From contig NC_060022.1 of the NCBI RefSeq assembly GCF_021134715.1, positions 3,787,001 to 3,851,000 of the forward strand: DNA of 64,000 nt, given 5' to 3'. The notes under the pieces are model-generated. The model did not search any database. It saw only the letters and a program-made list of their open reading frames with translations, and was not told the origin of the DNA. The position numbers were made by a program, and so were the translations under genes. Below are positions 16,130 through 41,800 of the stretch, in pieces (position 1 is the stretch's first letter; each line of letters begins with the position of its first letter). The DNA is from Daphnia pulex (lineage: Eukaryota; Arthropoda; Branchiopoda; Diplostraca; Daphniidae).

Positions 16130-18388
16130 ATGGGAGGACGTAAGTAGTAGGATTGGCAATAACATTTTGTTTTTAGAGAACATATTGCTGAATTGTTGGA
16201 TTTCAGAATGTCTATTCGCTTAATATATTCTCTGTTATAGCGTGCCTTTGTTCTCGATCTCAGCGGCATTCTTTCTTTAATTTATTCCGCAGCTTGTTTG
16301 CCGGCCAGGTACATTTTCACATTCTTGGCTTCCGCCGGACTTGCTATTATTTATGGATTGAAGGTAATAATTGACTATATGATTCCACGTCAATTTACTT
16401 CAATGGTTCATTTATTTACAAACGTTTCATCTTTTCGTTTGACGTACGTAGGTCAATCTAAGTGTGGCTATTGTCGTGATGGTGAGTGACATGTTGACGT
16501 GCTTTTATCAGTTAATCCGGCGCGATGCTAATGTTATTTCACCGTTCGACATTGATTACGTATTTAGGTCAACAGCACGGCGCTAAGCGAAATGGCTTTG
16601 ATGCACGACAGCCACAGTGGTGAATCGCATTCCAATGAAACTATCAACCCCGAATTCGCCTGCACCTCGCCGGATACTGGGACTAATCAAACGGCTCCTT
16701 CTCAAGTAAGAATTGAACATATTTTGAAACAAATTGCACCATGATGAGGCCGATTGTTTCGTTAACAGGACGGGCCATTCCCATGGCCAGAGCCGATCCA
16801 AGGATTGGTATTAGGCGCCTATTTCTGGGGCTACATAGTCACTCAAATTCCTGGCGGAAGAATGGCCGAAATGTTTTCTGCCAAGTGGGTCGTCTGGGCT
16901 TCTGTCTTCGTCAACGTCGTCTTCACGCTATTGACGCCCGTGGCCGCCCAAATTAGTTACATCGCCGTTTTGGTCGTTCGTTTTATCGAAGGATTGGGCG
17001 CCGTACGTATAGCGTGACAAATATATAAAAGGATTGTTTTATTCTTCCTAATAATACGCTTTTGAATAACAGGGCGTTTCTATGCCGGCCCTTCAAGTCT
17101 TGTTGTCCAAATGGGCTCCCCCATCGGAGAGAAACAAAATCTCGTCTCTGGTCTACGCCGGTTAGTTATAGTCCCGAATAAACTCATATGGTACTCGATC
17201 CTAGATAATAATGTCAGCATCTGTTAATTTCAGGAATGTCGCTGGGTACTGTTATAGCTTTACCTTTCTCGGGAATTTTGGCAGAGAAAATGGGATGGGA
17301 AGCGGTTTTCTACGTTCAAGGAGGATTGGCGTCTATTTGGTGCGTATTGTGGCTCGTTTTCGTCTACGATTCGCCAAAAGACCATCCGCGCCTCCATCCG
17401 GCTGAACGAAGTCTTTTCGAAAAATGCATGGAGAACGGTGGTGCTAAACGGCCGGTATTGTTTTACTCCATTGGAATTCCCCAGAATATTATTGACTTTC
17501 CTTTGTTAATTACATATTAGAGCTTACCAGTTCCATGGAAGTCCATCGCTACTTCGGTTCCCTTCTGGGCCCTTTTGATTGCTCACATGTGCAACAATTT
17601 CGGATGGTACATGCTCCTCGTTGAATTGCCAACCTACATGAAACACATTCTCCGTTTCAACATTGGCAAGAATTCTCTACTGTCGGCTGTGCCTTATCTT
17701 TGCCTGTGGGTCTTCTCCATCATCTGGAGTAACTCGATGGATTTCGTTAAAAACAAGAATTGGATATCCACCACGGCCGTCCGTAAACTCTCCACAGCTG
17801 TCGGTACGTGTACACATTTTTTCTAGCAGTTGCACAATTGTAAATTTAATCACTATTTGTACATTTTCTCATACATGAACAGCTTCTTTGCTTCCGGCTT
17901 TGTGCTTCATCGGCGTGAGTTTTGCCGGATGCGACCGTACGACTGCCATTATCCTCATGTCACTCGGCACCATGTTCATGGCCGCAATGTATTGCGGAAT
18001 CTTGGCCAACCCTATTGATTTAGCCAGCAATTATTCTGGAACTTTGCTGGCACTGACCAATACGGCCGCCACAATCCCAGGCTTCATCGTCCCTGTGTTT
18101 GTCGGAGCCTTAACTCACGGAAACGTAAGTTAAAGTTTACTAGAAGCATTCGCAACGAAATCGACTGACGAATTTCTATTTTATTTCACTAAACAGCAAA
18201 GCGTCGGTCAGTGGCAGATTGTCTTCTTCACGACGTCTGGCGTTTTGTTGGCTGAACTGATAGTCTTTACGTTGTTCGGTTCGGGTGAAGAACAGCCATG
18301 GAATCAGGCATATACTTCCGGGGCTGGGGCTAAGGGCCGGCCTGGTTCTGCTGAGGCTAAACAACTCAACAAAAGAACCAGTGTTTAA
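16130..18388 (+). CDS. SLC17 anion/phosphate cotransporter-like, copy 2
   Basis: Tandem paralogue of the gene at 12762. Ten coding exons: 16130-16139, 16293-16363, 16452-16481, 16568-16705, 16769-17002, 17073-17160, 17234-17454, 17521-17803, 17883-18124, 18197-18388; 502 aa. Same MFS/SLC17 signatures: NLSVAIVVM, WPEPIQGLVLGAYFWGY, TQIPGGRMAEMFSAKWV, GMSLGTVIALPFSGILAEKM, FGWYMLLVELPTYMKHILRF, and GEEQPWN near the end. The first coding exon is only 10 bp. The intron that splits the FNIS(E/Q)-N junction in copies 1 and 3 is absent here, so 17521-17803 is one exon. The central loop is short and has no His cluster. Expected: twelve-span plasma or organelle membrane symporter; substrate unknown. 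Confidence 0.9.
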
Positions 18389-21162: not shown

Positions 21163-21195
21163 TATAAAACTGAAGTGCCCATTGCCCACATTTCA
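21163..21195 (+). promoter_or_regulatory. TATA box and initiator of Gag/RNase H-like gene
   Basis: TATAAAA at 21163-21169 and TTTCACT with its A at 21195, 32 nt downstream, a canonical core-promoter spacing. No ATG occurs between 21195 and the proposed start codon at 21319. Confidence 0.55.
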
Positions 21196-21318
21196 CTACA
21201 ACTTTGACAGTTTTATATTTCAGTTTTATTGAGAAAAGGTTCCGGTTTCACTCTTTTTTTTTTCCTGTTTATTTTGACTTTCGCAGAAAACGACCGGGTT
21301 CCAAATTTCAAACCAATA

Positions 21319-22622
21319 ATGGGTAGCATGGGAAACAAGGATCACTCCATGCTCTTACAGCACCCCTTTCGCCCAATAGCTGGAGTAAACGTTGTCCAAC
21401 TTCCAACTCATTTGAAAACATTTTTGAAACCAAGAAAGACCCTTCCATTCTTCTCTGGTTCCAAGAGAGAAGCTCTAATTGAAGACTGGGTTCAGGAATG
21501 TGAGAGAACCGCGGCGATCCTCAGATGGACGGAGAGTGTCATGCTAGAAGAATTTGCCAAAAAGCTGAGCGGCGATGCCCGAATATTTCACGAAAAAATT
21601 TTAAAATCTGTCAAAGATTATAAAGACTGGCGCAAATTAATGACAGACGAATTCTTTGAAAAGGACAAAGAGTTTTATGTCAGACAATTAATCAATTTGA
21701 AACAAAAGCCGGACCAATCGGTTCGGGCATTCGCTCAAGAGATCGATTCACTCATGGTGAAAACCATGGGTTTGGCTATCATTACGGACAAGCTGCACAA
21801 AACATTTTGCCTGAATACGAAGTTGGCTTATTTTAGCGACGGCTTGCGTGAAGATGTACGGGCACATTTCGGCTCAATTCTATTGAAGAATCGAAGTCGA
21901 GTGCCGTCTTGGTCGTGGATCGTCGAGGCTTCCCAAGACGCTGAATGGCTCATTGACCTAAGGAAGAAATCTGCTTACTCCAAAACAGCTACTACTCCGC
22001 AATCGGCCATTGAGGACTACACTAAGGTCTACATCACCATTTCGTGTAATAAAGAAAAGAATTTAACTGGATACGGCCTCTTCTTTGGCGATAACGATTC
22101 GAGGTAGTTCAACCAATCCATTTCATTTTCCCTTTTAAATTAATCTATTTATTTGGAATAGAAACATCGGTGATGTATCAGCATGTACCGGTAATGCAAC
22201 AATGATTATAGCGGCAACCAGAGCAATTAATACAGCCAAAAATTGTGGTGAAAAACACATTTGGTGTTGATTCCAAATTTATAAAGAATATTCGTTTAAT
22301 CGAATGATTGTCACTTACAGGCATGGAGCGACTGGCTATTAACACTAGTTTGGAATATTTGCTAAAATTCGTCGATTACTTCGCCGTCCCTTGGTTGGAG
22401 CGAAAATGGCGCAACGTCAAAAACGTGTATTTATGGCGCGAGCTTCTCACAAGCCTCGAGGGCAGCATAAACGTCAAATGGGTAATCCATGTCAAATCTT
22501 TAATTGAATGTATTTTAATTTTAAATGATTTATCCATTTATTGTATTTAGGAAGTTCCAGATAAGAATGGACAGGATTATACTGAAGCAAGAAAACTCGC
22601 AAAAATTGCTTTGAACAAATAA
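21319..22622 (+). CDS. Domesticated Gag-like domain fused to inactive RNase H-like domain
   Basis: Four exons, 21319-22103, 22162-22247, 22321-22481, 22551-22622, joined in consistent phases 2, 1, 0; 367 aa with no stop or frameshift. Residues about 40-215 resemble a retrotransposon Gag capsid region (retrotrans_gag, Arc/PNMA-like): PFFSGSKREALIEDWVQECE, a Trp-rich helix, EFFEKDKEFYVRQLINLKQK, then QSVRAFAQEIDSLM. No zinc knuckle is seen. Residues about 235-367 follow the RNase H1 layout: GYGLFFGDNDSRNIG, a central helix, RLAINTSLEY, a Trp/Lys-rich stretch, INVKWEVPDKNGQDYTEAR. The acidic catalytic residues expected at the first strand (TDG), helix A (E) and the TDS motif are replaced (ISCN, TMII, NTS). 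Introns, a core promoter and a poly(A) signal suggest a host gene rather than a live element. No LTR, protease or reverse transcriptase is visible nearby. Function unknown; identification of both domains is by eye. Confidence 0.7.
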
Positions 22623-22700: not shown

Positions 22701-22706
22701 AATAAA
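22701..22706 (+). terminator. Poly(A) signal of Gag/RNase H-like gene
   Basis: AATAAA about 79 bp after the stop codon, supporting the end of this gene model. Confidence 0.5.
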
Positions 22707-24091: not shown

Positions 24092-26779
24092 ATGGCGAAA
24101 GGACGTAAGGAAATTTAATTTTTACTACCTATACACTAACTTAAATTTTTGTTTCTTGATTATTGTGGTTTGTCGCAACCTTTTTTGTTTCCCTGCATCT
24201 TGGTTTTTAATTCAAACAAAGGATCTTCTCACGCACACACTTACAAAACAGATTTTCTTTTTACTGTTTTATTTCATAGCTTTTTATTAATTATTATTTT
24301 TTTTTCAGCATTAATCCCATCTCGTTACATCTTTACGGCACTGATCTCTATTGGCCTAGCTATTATTTATGGATTGAAGGTAAGAATAATTTTAGAATCG
24401 GAAATCCGAATCATGGTGATTTACATATTGAACTTTTATTTTTTAAACTCGACCGGAAATTCGCGCTGCCAATAACAATTTTTAATTTTTATCACAGGTC
24501 AATTTAAGTGTGGCCATTGTCGTCATGGTAAGAATAACTCACGCACGTTTTAGAGATTTTAATATTGATGCGGCGATCCTTATGACCTCAGATTAATTCA
24601 ACGGAATTAGCATTAATGGCGTCATCGGAATCCCACCAAGATACCCATCACACTTTCTCTAACGGAACGGGATCTGCTGGCGTACCTGAATTTGCTTGCG
24701 CAGCTCAAGATACTGGAACCAACAAGACCGTGGTCGCTCAGGTTCGATCAAGTTTTTTCTTACCGCCCTTTTTCGGTTGCTTAATTTTTTAAATCTTTTC
24801 GCACATCACAGGATGGACCATTCGCTTGGCCCGAACCTGTTCAAGGATTGGTGTTGTCCGCATACTTCTGGGGTTACCTCTTGACTCAAATTCCAGGGGG
24901 GATGATAGCTGAAAAGTATTCGGCAAAGTGGGTCATTTGGGCTTCCGTACTCGTTAACGTCGTTTTTACAATCTTGACACCGCTCGCGTCGAATATCAGT
25001 TACATTGCTGTCCTCGTTGTCCGATTCATCGAAGGACTCGGCGCTGTAAGATTCCCTTATTCTTTAGCTACTATTACTGTCAAAATGTCCTCAAGTTTTT
25101 TAAAATTTATTTCTGTGTGCAGGGAGTATCACTTCCAGCCATTCACGTCATGCTGACAAAGTGGGTTCTGACGGAAGAGAGAAATCTAATGTCTTCTTTG
25201 GCTTATGCCGGTAAATATTTAATCGTGATTTTGCGCAACGCATTATATCAAATTCAATTTATGATTTGACAGGTATGGCGTTGGGTACCGTCATCTCACT
25301 TCCATTTTCGGGAATTTTAGCCGCCTCATGGGGCTGGGAATCGGTTTTTTACGTTCAAGGAGGTCTGGCAATGATCTGGTGCGTTTTATGGCTCATCTTT
25401 GTCTTCGATTCACCGGAAGATCATCCGCGAATTCATCCGGCTGAATTGGAACTTTTCGAGGCTGAACACCCCCATGATGTTGACGAAACTATTTCTAACG
25501 GGGTCCAAAAAGAAGAAGAACAGAGCATGTCAGCCACAGAAGTAGTTGTGGCGGTCCCCGCCAAAGACGATAAAAATAAGCCGAAACCCAAGAAAGTCCA
25601 CCACGGACACCATTGGCATGGATTCCATGGTTGGCACGGATTTCACGGATGGCACGGGTGGCACGCAGGACACAAACACCACGAACATCCTAAACTCCAT
25701 AAAGAACATCTTAAAAAGCAAGGCCACGCTCATCACGGTGGACACGGACATGCGGTATGTTTTCCATGAATTTATATTTCTGTAGTATTCCCGATATCTC
25801 TGTTTTTATTCTAATTTAATGGTATACATATTTCATCCATAGAATTTGCCAATTCCATGGAGAGCTCTCGCTACTTCCGGGCCTTTCTGGGCCATCCTTG
25901 TGGCTCACACATGCAACAATTTTGGCTGGTACATGCTCTTAGTTGAGTTACCCACCTACATGAAAGCTATTTTGCGCTTCAATATCAGTCAGGTGAGAGT
26001 GTGATATTTAATTCTCTGTCTTGTTGATTGCCTTGTAACCAAATTTATATTCGCAACAGAATGCCGGGTTGTCCGCCATTCCATACGTGTCGTTGTGGAT
26101 ATTCAGTATCATTTGGAGTAATCGTTTAGATTGGGCAAAAGGCAAGGGGTGGATCTCCACCACAACTGTGCGGAAGTTGTCAACAGCTGTCGGTGAGTAA
26201 CCCTGCAATTCTCATCTCTTTGACACCAAAAATTGTCATGATCTGTCAAACAGGATCTTTGTTGCCCGCTGCCTGTTTCATTGGTGTCAGCTTGGTTGGA
26301 TGCGATCGCCAAGCAGCCGTGGCTCTGATGACTGTCGGTACCATGTTCATCGCCGGAATGTATTGCGGATTTCTTACCAATCACGTTGATATCGCACCCA
26401 ATTACGCTGGAACTTTAATGGCTCTGACGAATACGGCGGCTACGATTCCGGGATTTATCGTTCCAGCCTTTGTCGGTCAACTAACCCACGGAAATGTTAG
26501 TCATTTTTTGGGTTGCGTGTTTAATTTTTCTTCCGAACTTTAATGTCTTTATTTGAACTTTAGCAAACTTTGGGCCAATGGCAAATCATTTTTTTCACCA
26601 CGGCAGCTGTTCTCGGCCTAGAGTTTGTCGTTTACACAGTGCTGGGATCTGGAGAAGAGCAACCTTGGAACCATGTCGGTAGTCACAAAGCTGAATTAAA
26701 CAAGGATACAACTATCAGGGGAATCCAGCAGGAACCTGAAACAGAACAGCTGGATGCTGAAAAAAGAGAAAACGCATAG
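24092..26779 (+). CDS. SLC17 anion/phosphate cotransporter-like, copy 3, His-rich loop
   Basis: Third SLC17 paralogue. Eleven coding exons: 24092-24104, 24309-24379, 24498-24527, 24592-24741, 24812-25045, 25123-25210, 25273-25754, 25843-25992, 26060-26192, 26254-26495, 26564-26779; 602 aa, about 90-100 residues longer than copies 1 and 2. Transport core intact: NLSVAIVVM, WPEPVQGLVLSAYFWGY, TQIPGGMIAEKYSAKWV, FGWYMLLVELPTYM, GEEQPWN. The extra length is in exon 7 (residues about 260-356), the cytoplasmic loop between the two six-span halves: an acidic part, a Lys/Pro part, then a segment of about 52 residues with 21 histidines built on repeated HGWHGFH-type units. Copy 1 has only a short Gly/His remnant in the same place. 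The loop resembles metal-binding loops of zinc transporters; metal sensing or binding is inference. Confidence 0.9.
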
Positions 26780-38837: not shown

Positions 38838-41800
38838 TCATTGAGCCGAGGAAGAGGCCAGCGTGATGGGGTTCCTTGGCCGGACGACAAACGAGCGGAT
38901 GTCGTCGCTATTATTGCTGCCGGCACTATCGGTCGCTTCAGTTGGAAACACATTAACCGGTTTCAGTTTACCGGTGATAACGGTCGCAATGTGACGTCCA
39001 TCCTGTTGGGGTGTTGGGGGGAACGTGTCAAAGTGATTGTTATTAGTGCTGGCGGACGTTTGGTAATTTATGGAAGATGACGCTGCTGTGGGCGTGACCG
39101 ACGACTCCCATTCGCGGTGCTGGGTCGGTTCAAACTCGAAAGGCGAACTGGAGGAAGGTCCGGTCGACGAAAGTAACAAGGAAGGCCGCATCGGAACGGA
39201 CATTTTGACCAATTCCGACGGCCGGAAAGTGTCGCTTCTACTGTTGTGAAGTGGAATGATGATCGGGGAAGGTTGAGTCGGCCACGGTGTCTGAGGTCGA
39301 ACAGTTTGCAGTGGCCGAGTGACCGGCTGCTGCTGGGATCTCTGATTGGTGTACGGCAGATGCTGATTGGTGGAAGGATGCGGCTCCAGCGGCAGCAAGA
39401 TTGAGAGCGGAATTAACTTCTGCGGCTGCACTAATAGCGGCGTATTCCGCAACGCAGGAGATTTCTGCTGTAACGGATGGGTTGTTGTTGGAGCAGGTGA
39501 GCGCGCTGCTGGCGGTGCAGGTCGAGTCAGGACACTGGTCACCTGATAATCCGATCCGCCGGTCAGGACCACTTGGTATGCGGGAGTTGGGTACGCCGTT
39601 GGGTACGCCGTTGGGTACGCCGCCGTCTGATAGGACGCTGTTTGATAGGACGGAGAAGAGGCCGCACCCACAGCCGATGAAGTAGAGTAGTAATATTGTT
39701 GTTTCTTCAGTTGTTTCGGCTTGGTGCTGCCGTAAGTATAACCGGCGGGAGTAGTGACCCAGGGCTTTTTCACGTAGACGGTCGTCTTGGTTGCCTGGTA
39801 AGGTGATGGTAATTTGGGCTGCTGTTTCGTTGTGGCATAGATCGTCGTTGGAGTAGGTTTCGGCGGAGCCGCATACGTCGTCTTTTGTTGAACCGGTCGG
39901 ATAGGAGGACTGCTGTAGTGTACAGCGGTGCTCACCGGAAGCTGGATGGGTCGGCTAGTGGTGGAAATGTGAACGATTGAATTTGGATTACTAGTACTCG
40001 GGAAAGGTTTCCAGTAGATGCTGTTCTTCTCCTCCTGTTCCTGTTGTTCTTTCGATACGCTAAGTAAAGAGCTCGGAACAAATGGAGGTGTAGGACGTTC
40101 AGGTTGGCGTCCAAATTGACGTTCTGGTTGTCGCTCGAACTGGCGTTCGGGTTGACGTTCGGGTTGTCTTTCGGGTTGTCTTTCGGGTTGTCTTTCGGGT
40201 TGACGTTCGGGTTGACGTTCGGGTTGACGTTCAGGTTGACGTTCGGGTTGACGTTCGGGTTGATGTTCGGGTTGACGTTCAAATTGACGCTCCGGTTGAC
40301 GACCGAATTGGCGTTCAAATTGGCGTTCAAATTGGCGTTCAAATTGGCGTTCGAATTGGCGTTCAGGTTGGCGCTCAGGTTGGCGCTCAGGTTGGCGCTC
40401 GGATGGTCTGTCGGGTTGTCGTTCGGGTTGACGTTCTTGGTGGGTATTGGGTTCAATACGAATACTGGAACGGTCATTTGAAGGACTTTTGCTGGTGGGG
40501 TTTGACCTGAAACCCTGGAACGGATGCGACTCCAGCTCTTGCTGATTTATTGGCTTGCGGTTATTATTCGGCTTGGTTCGCAGGTAACCCGAGCCTCTCG
40601 TTTTATTGAGAATGTGCAATTGTGCACCCCAAGCGATATTGTTAAGGAAGTCAGGATCCTGGGCCAGCAGCAACCACTTATCCGGCAACAACGACGTTGA
40701 TATGGGATACTCTTCTTTACTCTTCAAATTATCGCGGCCGTAATCGGATGAGGACTCATATCGGCTGGACGGCGACGTCACAGTGGGTGACCACGGGTCT
40801 CGGCTAACGTCAGTCCCCGAAGTGGACGCCAGTGTTTTGAAAGGCGACTCGTAGAACGGGACCGTGACGTCAGGAGCTCTCGGTCGATTACCGGGAACCC
40901 AATCCGTTCCGGCTCGAGTCGTCTTGAAGTTGGCCGTGTCAGATGGTTTCGACAGCGGAATATGTCGCGACGCCCATTCCTGGAACGTCGGTTCCGACAC
41001 TTCGCGCTTGTCGAATCGAGCGAAAGATGGCGTCGGCGTCGGCTCCTGGAAATACGGCGAACTGCTACTGCGTTCGGCGGCGGCGGCGACTTGCGGTTGG
41101 GTTGATCCTTCCAGTCGGCGATCTATATAAATTAGTGTCACAGCAATCATGCAATTAGGGCTTTTTCTTTTGTAACCAACACAAAAAAAAGGGGGCCACA
41201 AATTAGGCTCCGACGGAGGAGGGCGGAGAACCGCTTATTATTTATTGTGATGGCGATGTCTTAAATACGAACCTTGAGGTTGTTGCTCGTGCCGTTGGAT
41301 GACATCTTTGTTGAGCGGGTACAGTCCAACGGATTTGGAACAGTCGACATTGAACCACCAGTCGCAAACGCTGTTGTCCGGGGTAATGTTATTTGTGTCA
41401 ACAACAAACAAGAAAAAGAAGAAAAAGAAAAAAAGAAAAGAGGGGGGGAATGAATGAGATTTGGTGGAAATCAAATATTTAAGTCAATTCAATTATACGT
41501 ACAAGAAGCGCTGATGGTAGAGCGTCCCGTTCGGACAGAGGAACGACGTTTTCTTGTTGTCACGACAAACGTGGAAAACCTGCAAATTTGGGCAAACGAC
41601 ATCATTGTTTAACATTCCATCGACGTCACACCCCATTTTTTTGAATAATAAGTGATTAGATTTAAGCTGCTGCTTTTTTCGTGGAATTTATTTTAGGGAT
41701 ATTGTTTTTGAGAAATGCTGCGCCATTTCGCCCCAAAAAGCCAACGGACGCAAGGCCTTTCAGTCGTCGGAAAAGATGGGTAATATTGCACGTATACACC

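Follow-up and report, generated by a model that had tools for sequence, protein, structure and literature searches.

The locus at positions 21319-22622 of the window (the complete 64,000-nucleotide stretch of Daphnia pulex DNA analysed here, C6:3787001-3851000) raises the question of whether a retrotransposon-type capsid and an RNase H1-type domain have been joined in a single host gene, where the two halves originated and what the resulting protein might do. Comparison of the stretch with the genome sequence (133.2 Mb in 13 contigs) confirmed that the locus carries a real fusion gene, composed of a Gag capsid part and an RNase H1 part. Judged from introns, alignments and trees, it is very probably a domesticated gene, one of at least four, in which a duplicated host RNASEH1 has a Ty3/gypsy Gag capsid in place of its N-terminal part.

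Structure of the window gene

The sequence-only reading of this stretch had proposed an intact 367-aa frame spliced from four exons and equipped with a TATA/initiator-like promoter and a poly(A) signal. All of these elements were recovered: the model is open, its introns of 58, 73 and 69 nt have GT-AG borders, and the promoter and polyadenylation signals match their consensus motifs. The features are located as follows.

21163..21169, plus strand: TATA box (TATAAAA), consensus match only
about 21193, plus strand: initiator-like TCACT, found by eye about 30 bases past the TATA box
21319..22103, plus strand: exon 1, 261 codons and 2 nt, with the complete capsid part and the first RNase H strands
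21406..21972, plus strand: Ty3/gypsy-type Gag capsid region with both CA halves, residues about 30-218
22015..22103, plus strand: first part of the RNase H1 domain, with Thr 240 in place of the first catalytic Asp
22104..22161, plus strand: intron 1, phase 2, positioned as in host RNASEH1
22162..22247, plus strand: exon 2, with Met 276 in place of the catalytic Glu
22248..22320, plus strand: intron 2, phase 1, positioned as in host RNASEH1
22321..22481, plus strand: exon 3, with Ser 300 in place of the second catalytic Asp
22482..22550, plus strand: intron 3, phase 0, behind Lys-Trp as in host RNASEH1, ends least certain
22551..22622, plus strand: exon 4 with the stop codon, His loop shortened and His gone, with Arg 358 in place of the last catalytic Asp
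22701..22706, plus strand: poly(A) signal AATAAA, consensus match only

Among the splice sites tried, 18 open models of 358-376 aa were obtained; introns 2 and 3 end at different points in them. We chose the model of 367 aa on the basis of its three junctions, all of which coincide with the positions and phases (2, 1, 0) of host RNASEH1. Introns 1 and 2 were recovered by spliced alignment to the canonical RNASEH1. Intron 3 has the least secure ends, because the spliced aligner read through it and selected a different donor under laxer penalties; the third junction was placed according to the family position after Lys-Trp. There were no in-frame stop codons in the selected frame, compared with about 22 expected from the base composition, and the other two frames contained 22 and 21. 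A structure prediction of exon 1 made without an alignment gave a mean pLDDT of 36, a value that we count against our preferred explanation. A 48-nt stretch upstream of the coding region (21239-21286) could, by eye, be an intron in the 5' leader.

The capsid part

The N-terminal part of the protein was matched by the Pfam Retrotrans_gag profile at E 6.1e-5 (residues 79-151), with a score of 23.6 bits lying below the gathering cut-off of 24.1. Matches within the same genome were stronger. The first 226 residues produced 67 matches at E up to 1, comprising the window gene itself, the fusions on contigs C12 and C2 described below, and 64 others, the best of which reached E 1.2e-14 with 33% identity over residues 30-158. 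As many as 62 of these 64 other Gag matches are situated in open frames of at least 150 aa, some of them interrupted by stops. The longer alignments reach residues 30-207 and further and thus span both capsid halves; by these alignments, the window gene is a carrier of the N- and C-terminal CA halves of a Ty3/gypsy-type capsid. No nucleocapsid or zinc knuckle was found behind its capsid region. A zinc knuckle was seen by eye in 8 of the 20 Gag frames inspected; for 8 of these 20, the strand read was the wrong one.

When the Gag half of the window protein was compared as a single sequence with solved structures, there was no match up to E 10. An eight-row capsid profile, built from the window sequence and seven relatives, recovered the PNMA2 capsid at E 2.9e-4 and 3.9e-4. 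The earlier suggestion of an Arc/PNMA-type capsid region is thus borne out through PNMA2; Drosophila Arc2 appeared only at E 0.11, which is not significant. The Gag nearest to the fusions in the Gag tree (locus L036; branch support 80/82) itself gave weak Pfam matches to PNMA (E 0.0012) and to the zinc knuckle (E 0.0097), both below cut-off. The frame that follows it matched the start of a reverse transcriptase (E 0.0058, below cut-off) and, at E 1.9e-9, a retroviral-type protease, so that L036 is considered part of a Ty3/gypsy-type element.

The RNase H part

The Pfam RNase_H profile matched residues 236-344 at E 0.0011, or at E 1.4e-4 when this half was searched alone, below the gathering cut-off. 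The nearest solved structures were weak matches, namely E. coli RNase HI variants (E 0.0023) and human RNase H1 (E 0.011), and the best paralogue of this half within the genome, on C12, was found at E 2.1e-7. The profile check suggested in the sequence-only reading therefore returned both domains, each below its Pfam cut-off, with the stronger matches coming from the same genome.

In a ten-row alignment, the complete active site D-E-D-H-D was present in rows C2, C5a, C9b, C9c and C5b. The remaining rows read D-E-N-H-D (human), D-E-D-A-D (C5d), D-E-E-P-K (C12) and Q-R-D-Y-A (C9a). The human row presumably derives from a mutated construct, which would account for its Asn. The window copy reads T-M-S-K-R, the fourth letter lying in the shortened loop, so that the active site is lost at five of five positions, as the earlier description of a domain lacking its catalytic acids had stated. 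The rest of the domain is better preserved. Of 16 non-catalytic positions invariant across the nine remaining rows, 12 are retained in the window copy; of 25 other positions invariant in C2, C5a, C9b, C9c, C5b and human, it keeps 14 (C12, 21; C9a, 18; C5d, 24). On this evidence much of the core persists without a catalytic site, and cleavage by the window copy is not to be expected. Its RNase H part has a net charge of +3 and a pI of 8.7, properties compatible with nucleic-acid binding and no evidence for it.

A family of fusions and their Gag-free paralogues

The window protein, the C2, C12 and C5 fusions and the PF00075 profile were used to search the genome exon by exon. At least four loci, counted among the best candidates only and hence a lower bound, have Gag-like sequence immediately ahead of RNase H within a single exon.

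C6, window positions 21319-22622, plus strand: window fusion, full capsid, active site 0/5
C2:825219-826198: C2 fusion (L064), coding for 263 aa from a predicted start, complete D-E-D-H-D
C12:9682205-9683152: C12 fusion, predicted start, 2/5 active-site residues
C5:9298320-9299312, minus strand: C5 fusion (L073), 264 aa, or 285 aa from an earlier ATG, predicted start, complete D-E-D-H-D

The RNase H parts of the other three fusions are 26, 47 and 49% identical to that of C2, which matched human RNase H1 at E 2.9e-34. The catalytic residues are kept at five of five positions in the C2 and C5 fusions, two in C12 and none in the window gene. The sequence-only reading had regarded Gag plus inactive RNase H as an undescribed class. 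Among the matches listed in our literature search, which had most subscription papers outside its scope, there was no description of a Gag-RNASEH1 gene, and the first half of that statement agrees with the literature searched. The second half needs correction: inactivity does not define the class, because two of the four fusions keep a complete active site and the window gene is the most degenerate member. The C2 and C5 fusions would be better subjects than the window gene for work on enzyme activity. No relatives of the C2 fusion were confirmed in IMG/VR.

Pfam gave no match up to E 1 for the Gag halves of C2, C12 and C5, which weighs against our preferred explanation, and their identity as Gag rests on comparison within the same genome. 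A profile including the window row gave domain values of 3e-16 (C12), 8e-11 (C2) and 6e-4 (C5). In BLAST searches against the genome, the Gag half of C12 found L036-type Gag (E 1.9e-7) ahead of the window Gag (7.2e-5), that of C2 matched the window Gag at E 1.4e-5 and retroelement Gag only at 0.03, and that of C5 matched, among the matches listed, only the other fusions and no retroelement Gag. All of these matches span the C-terminal capsid half only, and this half is common to the four fusions. A six-frame profile search upstream of C2, C12 and C5 yielded only the known C-terminal matches above the inclusion threshold and no N-terminal capsid half; it covered L067, L068, L073 and their neighbours, a range in which a distant exon or a strongly diverged half could escape.

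The canonical RNASEH1 (C9:2748k) has two PF01693 hybrid-binding stretches ahead of its RNase H domain. No PF01693 match was found in any of the four fusions (searched to E 10 for the window gene and to E 1 for the others). The fusions share with RNASEH1 the fold of the catalytic domain and, in the window gene, C2 and C5, the three introns; they differ from it in having Gag in place of the hybrid-binding domain and, in the window copy, in lacking the active site.

At least eight further RNASEH1-type loci had no Gag match: C9:2748k, C9:2766k, C9:1253k, C9:1251k, C7:10552k, C5:9105k, C5:9193k and C5:7292k; the upstream Gag search covered seven of the eight, all except C9:1251k. Several of these loci have features of their own. 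C9:1253045-1253495 (L006) is a Gag-free paralogue in which most of the active site has likewise gone (it reads Q, R, D, Y, A); it has an acidic N-terminal stretch and represents a second kind of degenerate RNase H1 in this genome. C7:10552216-10552589 on the minus strand (L070) is a near copy of exons 2-4 of the canonical RNASEH1 without the first RNase H exon; it lies behind frames that by eye resemble a pepsin/cathepsin D-type protease and looks like a partial duplication or chimera. C5:9105k (L071) and C5:9193k (L072) form a recent Gag-free RNASEH1 duplicate on opposite strands (92.5% identity over 1.38 kb) with a short His loop, and the C5 fusion is situated within 200 kb of both.

Candidate functions

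Domesticated capsids and restriction factors derived from capsid halves are already known. The fusions resemble Arc, PNMA and the RTL genes in their domesticated Ty3/gypsy-type capsid (PMC11011659). Mammalian RTL1 is described as carrying a capsid and a probably inactive RNase H beside protease and reverse transcriptase, all from the same element (PMC11011659), whereas the RNase H of the fusions is that of host RNASEH1 and stands without protease or reverse transcriptase. In Ty1, the C-terminal capsid half p22/p18 restricts the element and is proposed to block assembly (PMC8458377), and the domesticated gene DRT2 restricts Ty1' (PMC10951436). The host-resident DRT2 and the element-encoded p22/p18 share with the fusions the C-terminal capsid half of an LTR retrotransposon. 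As far as the cited texts describe them, they differ in having a Ty1-type source and no enzyme, and their restriction has been demonstrated experimentally. A Ty3/gypsy Gag element has been described from Daphnia, in a paper whose main text does not contain the words "ribonuclease" or "RNase H" (PMC13322756).

The closest parallel in design is a laboratory construct. An engineered Gag-RNase HI fusion inhibits MLV and, under the name of capsid-targeted viral inactivation, likewise combines a capsid protein with a C-terminal RNase H (PMC5035972). That fusion is laboratory-made; in Daphnia the family is natural, the enzyme is host RNASEH1 and the window copy is devoid of an active site. A capsid joined to a competent RNase H is not what the window copy presents; the active-site residues are present in the C2 and C5 fusions, for which activity is predicted.

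By analogy with these systems, we tentatively propose that the capsid part acts on the particles of resident Ty3-type elements, although this reading is itself somewhat doubtful. The capsid part, above all the C-terminal half common to the four copies, would bind the Gag of such elements, and the bound fusions would enter or block their particles. The active copies C2 and C5 might then cut the RNA:DNA hybrid formed in reverse transcription. The window copy, with its whole capsid and dead RNase H, could behave as a dominant-negative capsid subunit that jams assembly without cutting, and its RNase H fold may still bind hybrid or double-stranded RNA, as the sequence-only reading had suggested, and so stand in for the missing nucleocapsid. 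Under the restriction reading the loss of catalysis would be no obstacle, since a capsid fragment needs no enzyme in order to restrict. For the explanation as a whole, a domesticated fusion gene together with a restriction mechanism, we estimate a probability of roughly 0.45.

Five Ty3-type Gag loci are 97.9-99.5% identical over 3.3 kb; being near-identical, they indicate that such elements moved recently in this genome. These recent elements fall outside the Gag group nearest to the fusions, and we count this against the preferred explanation. The authors of the Ty1 p18 structure considered that capsid pieces are possibly exapted restriction factors (PMC8458377), and the fusion is a candidate for such a factor in an animal. 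A more elaborate version, which we regard as doubtful, is a natural capsid-targeted nuclease system, in which a host family would use captured Gag to carry its own RNase H1 into Ty3-type particles. Its members would divide the work, C2 and C5 being active with the C-terminal half and the window gene serving as a full-capsid dead scaffold or decoy whose RNase H fold binds nucleic acid. If the fusions do act on retroelement particles, evolution would have arrived at what virologists engineered in the 1990s. A direct test is offered by this family, since one architecture occurs with complete, broken and absent active sites alongside recently moved Ty3-type elements.

The C-terminal capsid half might instead function like the SCAN domain, as a dimerisation domain that replaced the hybrid-binding domain; the fusions would then target the cell's own RNA:DNA hybrids, and the dead copies would inhibit or partner the active ones. 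SCAN, itself derived from Gag, occurs in combination with host domains, and the SCAN-zinc-finger genes resemble the fusions as an expanded family combining a Gag-derived capsid module with a host domain (PMC3406341). The presence of the C-terminal CA half in all four fusions and the exchange of two PF01693 matches in the canonical RNASEH1 for none in the fusions fit this possibility. The SCAN partner is a zinc finger or KRAB domain and not an enzyme (PMC3406341). Against a dimerisation role, the window copy also keeps the N-terminal CA half, which would be superfluous in a dimer module, one copy has nothing left of the active site and a second has it only in part, and the RNase H parts have diverged far. 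We consider this role, the main rival of the restriction reading, possible but unlikely.

Origin of the two halves

The three introns of the window gene, C2 and C5 match those of the canonical RNASEH1 in position and phase. C12 has only the first RNASEH1 intron and has lost the other two. Among the Gag-free paralogues, the introns agree in C9c and C5d, the third is shifted in C5b and C9a is without the second. Because introns are shared at matching positions and phases, the RNase H part is attributed to host RNASEH1. The RNase H tree of 22 rows was split, with support of 99/99, between 11 retroelement rows and a set made up of the host, fusion, human and E. coli rows. These 11 rows came from 12 PF00075 loci tried out of 30, of which L051 was dropped for a stop; by eye they look non-LTR, so the split concerns a tree in which LTR-type RNase H is absent. 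An origin of the RNase H part in the pol of a retroelement, considered as a separate candidate, was ruled out by the shared introns and the RNase H tree.

In the Gag tree, the C-terminal halves of the four fusions formed one clade (100/99.7) against 20 retroelement Gags. The latter were chosen from 29 loci, nine being omitted as copies or fragments, and represent a few groups of near-copies. The tree program flagged long branches meeting in this tree, which counts against our preferred explanation. A Trp in the motif (A/T)EW was present in four of four fusions and in none of the 18 retroelement rows (out of 20) that reach this position.

The RNase H parts behaved differently: those of the four fusions did not form one clade in the best trees, a further point against the preferred explanation. 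Forcing such a clade was 11.3 log units worse with the retroelement rows and 7.0 without them, and the corresponding AU tests (p 0.060 and 0.096) did not reject a single clade at 0.05. The window RNase H branch is very long (2.6-3.5 changes per column) and lies nearest to a canonical RNASEH1; its placement is unsure because of this length.

These trees bear on whether the fusion arose once. Two captures could have taken place, one giving the window gene from a full capsid and one RNASEH1 copy, the other giving the remaining three from a capsid half and another copy, with the shared Gag residues inherited from a common donor. This possibility concerns origin and is compatible with any of the mechanisms outlined above. 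It draws on the RNase H tree computed without retroelement rows, where the Gag-free C5 paralogues cluster with C2, C12 and C5 (91/95) and the window gene has no assigned place, but it has to contend with the single, strongly supported clade of the four Gag parts and with the Trp that they share to the exclusion of the retroelement rows. We regard two captures as improbable.

Constraint, decay and mobility

Compared codon by codon, the window gene and C2 have identities of 0.46, 0.55 and 0.32 at first, second and third positions, whereas shuffled codons give 0.27, 0.27 and 0.25. Where the two share one of eight residue types with redundant third positions, only 9 of 36 third bases agree, so the third positions are saturated. 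The dN/dS estimates among the paralogues had saturated or undefined synonymous sites, except between two near-copies. A codon pattern of this kind, as read from the alignment, needs long protein-level constraint; it does not imply constraint in the present day.

The window copy could also be a decaying relic without a function of its own, beside C2 and C5 as the working genes. The loss of all five active-site residues, the very long RNase H branch and the low number of retained invariant positions relative to C12, C9a and C5d are what such decay would leave. They have to be set against a 367-codon frame that has remained open with intact splice sites, the conservation of second codon positions where third positions are saturated, and the 12 of 16 invariant non-catalytic positions still in place. 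Decay alone is decidedly improbable as an account of this gene.

The earlier description of a host-type gene without protease or reverse transcriptase agrees with what was found around the locus, and the multicopy LTR element that it asked to be looked for was not encountered. The 2-kb DNA of the window gene matched only itself in the genome, in a search that skipped very common words. Within 10 kb around the gene there was neither an LTR pair nor an inverted repeat pair of at least 40 nt, and a Pfam scan of the window protein gave no protease or reverse transcriptase match; none of the features of an LTR retrotransposon (LTR pair, pol and multiple copies) was found for the window gene. The C2, C12 and C5 fusions were each found once at near-identity. 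That a retroelement captured host RNASEH1 and left the fusions as its copies is highly improbable on these grounds, together with the retention of all three introns in three of the four fusions, even though Gag and RNase H share one open frame and C12 lacks two of the three introns. Taken by its sequence, the window gene is not a mobile element and probably not a dead one.

The only direct repeat pair in the same 10 kb is 190 nt long with 74% identity (17231-17420 and 25270-25459). By eye, these repeats lie in transporter-like frames that flank the fusion gene, which seems to be located between tandem paralogues. Elsewhere in the window, positions 38838-41234 on the minus strand contain a 798-aa frame with a long ERQPERQ-type repeat array, in a stretch of strong GC skew.
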